DNA of 64,000 nucleotides from positions 62,001-126,000 of the forward strand of contig JAFLVN010000001.1 in NCBI GenBank assembly GCA_022508285.1, given 5' to 3'. Positions 14,853-47,243 of this stretch are shown one piece after another. The position numbers and the translations under genes were made by a program. Under the pieces are notes generated by a model. It saw nothing but the letters and a program-made list of their open reading frames with translations. It was not told the origin of the DNA and did not search any database. Each line of letters starts with the position of its first letter. Position 1 is the stretch's first letter. Source of the stretch: Clostridiales bacterium (GTDB lineage Bacteria; Bacillota; Clostridia; Christensenellales; Borkfalkiaceae).

Positions 14853-14890
14853 CTCAAAGCGTTGACACGTCAAGCTTTGAGTAATATAAT
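14853..14890 (+). promoter_or_regulatory. Palindrome plus consensus promoter TTGACA-N17-TATAAT upstream of the TAGCCACAC element and FMN riboswitch
   Basis: CTCAAAGC...GCTTTGAG (14853-14881) encloses ttgaca (14862-14867); tataat at 14885-14890. Confidence 0.75.
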
Positions 14891-14891
14891 A

Positions 14892-15170
14892 TAGCCACAC
14901 GAGAATCGAACAGCACAAGGTTTTGGGGCGTTAAATGTCTTGATACGGCAGAACCCTCACTTGAAGTACGTCCTGTACGTCTGCGTTCGATTTCTTTGTC
15001 TCAATCCATTTTCCACTCCCAAAACTGCGAAGCATCTAAAAGTGCGCATTTTTTGGAGGTTTCAAGCGGAGAGAGCGCAGGCGTACTCGGCGGTACGACA
15101 AACGAACGGAGCGCAGAAAGAACAAAAAAGGCGCCTTTTAGACTTATGTTGTTCGATTCTCGTGTGGCTA
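14892..15170. repeat. TAGCCACAC element, copy 1 (279 bp, 21 bp perfect complementary ends, two nested sub-hairpins)
   Basis: TAGCCACACGAGAATCGAACA (14892-14912) versus TGTTCGATTCTCGTGTGGCTA (15150-15170); nested inverted repeats 14920-15025 and 15035-15142. Confidence 0.8.
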
Positions 15171-15184
15171 ACTACAATTCAAGG

Positions 15185-15307
15185 TTTTTCTTTGGGGCGG
15201 GGTGCAATTCCCCACCGGCAGTAAAGTCTGCGAAGCGCCGCAAGTTGCGGTGCCCGAACGGGTGCAATTCCCGTACCGACGGTATAGTCCGGATAGGAAA
15301 AGAAAAA
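15185..15307 (+). ncRNA. FMN riboswitch (RFN element)
   Basis: tttggggcggggtgcaattccccaccggcagtaaagtctgcgaagc...gcccgaacgggtgcaattcccgtaccgacggtatagtccggatagg matches the RFN consensus; upstream of ribU. Confidence 0.96.
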
Positions 15308-15347
15308 TGCACACATATATTGAATTTTGTGCTATTTTGATTTATTT

Positions 15348-15417: not shown

Positions 15418-16107
15418 ATGAAAGAGCAACAAATTGAAAACGCCGCAGACGGCGTTGAAGAAGAGCTGAACACAGCAGTGCAAAAGCGCACGGCAAAACA
15501 GGTATTCGCGGAATATTTTACCGCAACACGGATAGCTTACATAGCTATATTTACGGCATTGTCTTATGCGTTGCGTTTTTTGGAGTTTTCGCTGTTGCCC
15601 GGAACGCCGATAGCTTTTCTTAAACTGGATTTCTCAAATATATTCCCGCTTTTGGGCGGCTTTGCTCTCGGTCCTGTTGCAGGTATTGTCATAGGTGTAT
15701 TAAAGGAATTGCTTTGGATATTCTTTTCATCAACCTTCGGCGTGGGAGAAATTGCAAATATAATAGTTATGTTGCCGTTTGTGCTTATACCGACCATTGC
15801 CTATAAATACCGCAAGGGCATTAAAAGCGTTCTTTTGTTTACTTCAATAGGTTGCGTAGCTCAGGTTATTTGGTCTTTCCCTGTCAATTGGCTTTTAAAT
15901 TTCCCCGTGTTTGTGGGTTTTAACTGGAAGTTCGGCATGTCTTTCTTTATGGGCAACTATGTATGGGGCTGGGTAATGCTGTTTAACCTTATAAAAGCCG
16001 TCGCAATTGCCGTTATCGTTTTGCTGATTTATAAATCCGTTTCACAGCTAATCAAACTGACAAACGAAAAGTTTACAAAAAAGTCAAAAAAGAAAAAAGA
16101 GAATTAA
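15418..16107 (+). CDS. ribU: ECF transporter S component, riboflavin-specific (RibU-like)
   Basis: Multi-pass membrane protein, FLEFSLLPGTPIAFLKLDFSNIFPLLGGFALGPVAGIVIGVLKELL; downstream of FMN riboswitch; SD aaggag, ATG 15418. Confidence 0.92.
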   Translation: MKEQQIENAADGVEEELNTAVQKRTAKQVFAEYFTATRIAYIAIFTALSYALRFLEFSLLPGTPIAFLKLDFSNIFPLLGGFALGPVAGIVIGVLKELLWIFFSSTFGVGEIANIIVMLPFVLIPTIAYKYRKGIKSVLLFTSIGCVAQVIWSFPVNWLLNFPVFVGFNWKFGMSFFMGNYVWGWVMLFNLIKAVAIAVIVLLIYKSVSQLIKLTNEKFTKKSKKKKEN

Positions 16108-46914: not shown

Positions 46915-46923
46915 ATTTCTGCT

Positions 46924-46960
46924 AATTCCTATTGACAAAATAGGAATTAAATTTTATAAT
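46924..46960 (+). promoter_or_regulatory. 25 bp palindrome plus TTGACA-N17-TATAAT promoter upstream of iscS-iscU
   Basis: AATTCCTAT-TGACAAA-ATAGGAATT (46924-46948); ttgaca 46932-46937; tataat 46955-46960. Confidence 0.8.
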
Positions 46961-46961
46961 G

Positions 46962-47243
46962 TAGCCACACTATAATAAATTAAAACTGCTCAAACGGTGG
47001 CTTTGCGCCGCTTTCCCTCCGCTGCTCCTTCTGCGTACGTCTTTGTACGCCTCAGTCGCCGCGAATATAAATCAATCGCAAATACACTCGTTTGAGTGCT
47101 TCGCAGTTTTGGGATAACGGATTTTGAGATTAGACAAGGAAAAGACCGCAGTTAATCCAAGGACGGATTGACAAGGGCTTTGACAAAGGATAAGCCAAAA
47201 GCCGTATTTCAAAACCACGTTATAATTTATTATAGTGTGGCTT
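46962..47243. repeat. TAGCCACAC element, copy 2 (282 bp, 20 bp perfect complementary ends)
   Basis: AGCCACACTATAATAAATTA (46963-46982) versus TAATTTATTATAGTGTGGCT (47223-47242); internal CTGCGTACGTCTTTGTACGC hairpin. Confidence 0.8.

Follow-up and report, generated by a model that had tools for sequence, protein, structure and literature searches.

The foldback that sits between the promoter and the FMN riboswitch of a putative ribU gene, at a TA, in a window of 64,000 nucleotides from a Clostridiales bacterium (the whole stretch of DNA that was analysed), is very probably a TA-inserting, MITE-like, non-autonomous mobile element. It is a piece of DNA of about 280 bp whose ends can pair as a stem, P1, and whose interior can form two long arms, P2 and P3. 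It entered precisely at a TA, 1 nt 3' of the -10 box that belongs to the ribU promoter, and a TA now stands on either side. Transposition would have carried its family throughout an order of uncultivated Clostridia, the elements presumably being mobilised in trans by a separate enzyme recognising the core motifs, the folded form of the DNA and the TA, and not one fixed terminal sequence. Locally the element would be a passenger, adding 279 nt and a strong hairpin to the start of the ribU 5' leader and leaving the aptamer complete, and it may alter the stability of the ribU transcript or its processing by RNase III. The relevant features of the window are as follows.

14862..14890, + strand: host promoter TTGACA-N17-TATAAT of the ribU/FMN-riboswitch leader, outside the element (seen in the sequence; same promoter in element-free relatives)
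14892..15170, + strand: element copy 1, with one TA at each end (empty site; dispersed copies)
14892..14912, + strand: 5' terminal arm P1, TAGCCACACGAGAATCGAACA (perfect 21-bp inverted repeat)
about 14919..15028, + strand: inner arm P2 with a GTAC-type tip (alignment A2, both-side changes in 16 of 20 pairs)
about 15031..15143, + strand: inner arm P3 with a GTAC-type tip (alignment A3, both-side changes in 30 of 34 pairs)
15150..15170, + strand: 3' terminal arm P1', exact complement of TAGCCACACGAGAATCGAACA
15184..15308, + strand: complete FMN riboswitch aptamer, 3' of the element (RF00050, 110 bits)
15419..16107, + strand: putative ribU-like riboflavin transporter subunit, riboswitch-controlled (ORF directly behind the FMN riboswitch)
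46932..46960, + strand: promoter TTGACA-N17-TATAAT adjoining copy 2, outside the element (seen in the sequence; same promoter in the iscS leader of genome G026)
46962..47243, - strand (family orientation): element copy 2, of the sister type; it separates iscS from the promoter behind an Rrf2-type gene

The name ribU-like is taken from the context and from an earlier, sequence-only reading of the window. That reading described a promoter directly before a 279-bp foldback with 21-bp exactly complementary ends (14892-14912 against 15150-15170), and both are present: the promoter is perfect, its -35 box TTGACA occupying 14862-14867 and, after N17, its -10 box TATAAT 14885-14890, with the foldback beginning 1 nt later. 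Copy 1 measures 279 bp, or 277 bp from its inner A (14893) to its inner T (15169), and the two sub-hairpins noticed earlier correspond to P2 and P3 and are backed by covariation in the family. The 5' arm would also stand at the start of the RNA, as proposed, provided that transcription begins at the overlying promoter, the ribU start being placed from the -10 box. The comparison of ribU leaders with and without the element, suggested by the same reading, was made for copy 1 only, with 20 FMN-riboswitch leaders of relatives readable in the forward direction. It spoke against that reading: in 16 of the 20, all without the element, a TTGACA/TATAAT promoter lies 16-22 nt before the conserved aptamer sequence TCTTTGGGGC. 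In this genome the promoter-to-aptamer distance measures 298 nt as it stands; taking out the element together with one TA shortens it to 21 nt, and the sequence so joined, TATAATATAACTACAATTC, closely resembles those of the relatives, e.g., TATAATCTAACTACAATTT at locus L129. Since element-free relatives carry the same promoter at 16-22 nt, the promoter is the host's own.

Copy 2 shares the architecture and size of copy 1, as had been stated, and has T, not A, as its final base, but it does not share its orientation: the two copies lie in opposite directions relative to their own promoters (alignment A1: L001 +, L012 -). Promoter coupling, as proposed in the earlier reading, is thus not a property of the element, and many other copies have no adjoining promoter at all. 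That the foldback acts as a structured or regulatory RNA coupled to a promoter has become very improbable. Such an RNA would account for the strong folds of both window copies (copy 1 folds as RNA at -112.3 kcal/mol and its dinucleotide shuffles at -75.8 +/- 5.0, giving z -7.3 with 0 of 200 as good; z is -7.7 for copy 2), for the covariation in P2 and P3 and for a promoter directly upstream of both window copies, but the promoter predates the element, and neither the strand-specific structure nor the fixed gene orientation of a cis-acting RNA regulator was found. Mismatches at well-paired positions are G.T in 41 cases and A.C in 44, with no strand bias and no excess of G.U, and in tandem settings 22 elements have the same orientation and 28 the opposite one (n=50 sites, with a crude ORF caller). 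Elements lie in 27 divergent against 7 convergent gene gaps, a count made with the same crude caller, and divergent gaps are the longer ones in any case. Promoter boxes adjoin an element end in 12 of 71 cases, where AT-rich TA sites in general give about 9%, and with so weak an excess promoter-targeted insertion was set aside. Rfam 15 covariance models gave no relevant match in copy 1 and seven loci carrying relatives. Strong covariation beside a perfect promoter can therefore be left behind by transposition and need not mark a riboregulator, and it is the empty site that decides. The earlier statement that the foldback is no known riboswitch, intron or MITE stands for the first two; its behaviour is MITE-like.

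The iscS leader of G026 holds a differently armed relative at another TA than that of copy 2 here: in two species, elements of different types entered this leader independently. The genome of the window (1.47 Mb, 97 contigs) contains 8-9 copies of the element: a full-length copy on contig 10 matches copy 1 at 94%, the sister type of copy 2 has three further copies at 89-91%, the copy on contig 5 is truncated, and those on contigs 2 and 34 are cut by contig ends, perhaps being one copy split between both. Such copy numbers are lower bounds, because assembly contigs break inside elements (the ends of C2 and C34 in G000 and several contig ends in G222, L204-L206 and L213). Close copies are patchy across the genus. 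Joining end matches with core matches yielded 37 full-length relatives, 275-287 bp long and alignable from one end to the other, and a later collection comprised 97 distinct elements, most of them 274-287 bp long; a P2 covariance model matches 57 of 201 family genomes (12 of 18 genera) and, across the order, 41 of 396 (about ten families). These 97 elements with matched arms have what defines a MITE, being short, apparently non-coding, bounded by terminal inverted repeats and present in multiple dispersed copies. Compensated changes along their whole length speak against protein coding.

Recent movement of exactly this unit of about 280 bp is very likely, because genome G629 has four copies that are 99.6-100% identical over 279-281 bp, where the homology stops and unrelated flanks begin. 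T..A flanks are found in 67 of the 97 elements; with about 30% lacking a perfect T..A pair, duplication of the TA cannot be taken as general. Three of the 37 copies interrupt ORFs close to the N-terminal end, and in each the frame continues past the insertion point. Copy 1 and these in-ORF copies are clean insertions, which fit a duplicated TA and entry between its T and its A equally well. By sequence inspection the interrupted ORFs, at L088, L145 and L160, are nitroreductase-like, SDR-like and XRE-HTH-like. A self-splicing intron was considered and set aside, frame continuity across three insertions being equally expected from clean transposition; a tRNA origin, prompted by the tRNA-like ends (GTTCGANTC), was likewise dropped when ARAGORN found none in about 30 of the 97 elements.

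What is unusual is that the terminal arms, though hypervariable, remain complementary to each other. Over the first 18 pairs of P1, pairing reaches 96% in the 37 elements, which have 34 different 5' arms among them, and when arms are swapped between elements the pairing falls to 59% on average. The both-side changes of P2 and P3 exceed all shuffles and slides in the main measures, the P2 pair-type count being reached by 12 of 500 shuffles, and the core columns are more conserved than the terminal ones. As selection on the transcript strand would favour G.U, which is not in excess, the pairing seems to belong to the DNA itself or to a correction process at the DNA level. The latter, in which template switching or hairpin repair copies one arm onto the other with no selection for structure, and gene conversion of the core adds apparent arm swaps, is a possible but unlikely account. 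It agrees with the symmetry of G.T and A.C mismatches, with the 17 transversions among 60 double changes in close pairs, with the higher ratio of double to single changes in P1 than in P2 and P3 of the same pairs, and with elements whose cores are near-identical and whose arms differ (L140/L158 and L079/L088). Correction of this type should, however, erase the internal loops of P2 and P3, positions that remain unpaired across the 37 relatives. Arm rewriting as the cause of the excess of paired changes in P1 was set aside, core gene conversion explaining that excess too. Because correction would explain the matching of the arms and not the mobility of the element, it may act alongside the mobile element preferred here.

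What mobilises the element was sought in the carrier genomes. No mobilising enzyme was found among the two transposase families searched for in draft genomes. An IS630-type DDE_3 transposase, matched in control genomes, is absent from all 22 carrier drafts, some of them recently amplified, and was rejected as mobiliser; a Y1 transposase (PF01797) occurs in 28 of 93 genus genomes and is not associated with the carriers (G019, G020, G026 and G039 carry the element without Y1), so that a REPIN/RAYT-type system was rejected too. Nor was an autonomous element sharing the ends found in the draft of the genome itself or at the loci examined: a single TAGCCACAC-type pair 1.4 kb apart is a chance occurrence enclosing ordinary ORFs, and the partial matches at L176, L232 and L236 proved to be short copies that had lost P3 and kept matched ends. 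Phage and plasmid records gave no match to the element, and the viral_contigs set gave no terminal match and one chance match to the core inside a phage gene. The sequence-only reading had named, as a finding that would count against it, a MITE with transposase-specific terminal repeats and no covariation; the element is indeed MITE-like, but its covariation is strong and the searches above found no transposase with these repeats.

Conservation of the core above the ends is unusual for a MITE and counts against the MITE-like reading. It also counts against the view that these are classical MITE families, each with its own IS630/Tc1-mariner-type transposase reading its terminal repeat, the arms matching since both ends are recognised and the transposases having been lost, missed in drafts or diverged too far. 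We consider this view doubtful. In its favour are the TA ends, the AT-rich intergenic location, the small size, the precedent of RUP, linked to IS630-Spn1 (PMC3049150), and the type A arms common to close copies in several genomes, but DDE_3 is absent even from recently amplified carriers and the several unrelated arm types together in one genome (G242, G019) would need several transposases. Since the matched arms vary freely, the core is conserved and G.T equals A.C among the mismatches, recognition at the DNA level is favoured. The more specific idea that the mobiliser reads a folded, three-armed DNA with two GTAC-tipped arms, the terminal repeats drifting freely as matched pairs, is offered very tentatively and is rather improbable as it stands. 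If a mobiliser does recognise folded DNA, it would represent a tractable transposition mechanism, and the near-identical copies in G629 and G222 point to where it could be sought.

Several known repeats are similar in kind. RUP of Streptococcus pneumoniae (107 bp, with terminal inverted repeats similar to those of IS630-Spn1; PMC3049150) is also a small, non-coding, dispersed repeat with terminal inverted repeats paired in the fold and a target duplication, whereas the element here is about 280 bp long and order-wide, has hypervariable matched arms and is without an IS630-type enzyme in the 22 carriers. Correia/NEMIS and ERIC are intergenic MITEs with stable hairpins that enter mRNAs, and effects of RNase III or RNase E have been reported for them (PMC10969869, PMC3049150), but they differ in sequence and size and are defined by their terminal repeats, the element here by its core. 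The dispersed intergenic repeats bcr1-bcr18 of the Bacillus cereus group, several of them MITE-like, are in many cases transcribed in UTRs, some with conserved structure (PMC3446304), and unlike the present element are confined to one species group. REPIN/RAYT (PMC3116915) shares the inverted pair of hairpin units moving as one unit; the element here is far longer, has TA ends and shows no Y1 transposase association in the genus. A size that hardly changes across an order, arms that are hypervariable and yet matched, and the conservation of its core set it apart from RUP, BOX (also similar in kind), Correia, ERIC and bcr alike. The family is apparently undescribed, a novelty that is provisional insofar as an existing catalogue of structured-RNA candidates from the human microbiome (PMC8040213) lies outside the comparison; it adds to the known repeats one found in about ten families of one order, with arms that vary freely as matched pairs.

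Short deletion derivatives with matched ends kept also occur, at L060 (1501-1566, 66 bp) and L058 (1464-1612, 149 bp). At L257, L265 and L267, which come from distant families within the order, the P2 model recognises each half of the element, the two matches being inverted relative to each other; this suggests that P2 and P3 arose by an ancient inverted duplication. Palindromes accompany both promoters of the window. The one surrounding the ribU -35 box, which the earlier reading had included with the element, is real and near-perfect (CTCAAAGCgTTGACacGTCAAGCTTTGAG, CTCAAAGC..GCTTTGAG, window positions 14853-14881), but it lies outside the element, because the relatives' leaders do not show it; it could be an operator or a terminator-like hairpin of the minus strand. 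The other, AATTCCTATTgacAAAATAGGAATT at 46921-46946, covers the -35 box between the Rrf2-type regulator gene and iscS, is common to G026 (L083/L101) and is a probable Rrf2/IscR-type operator.
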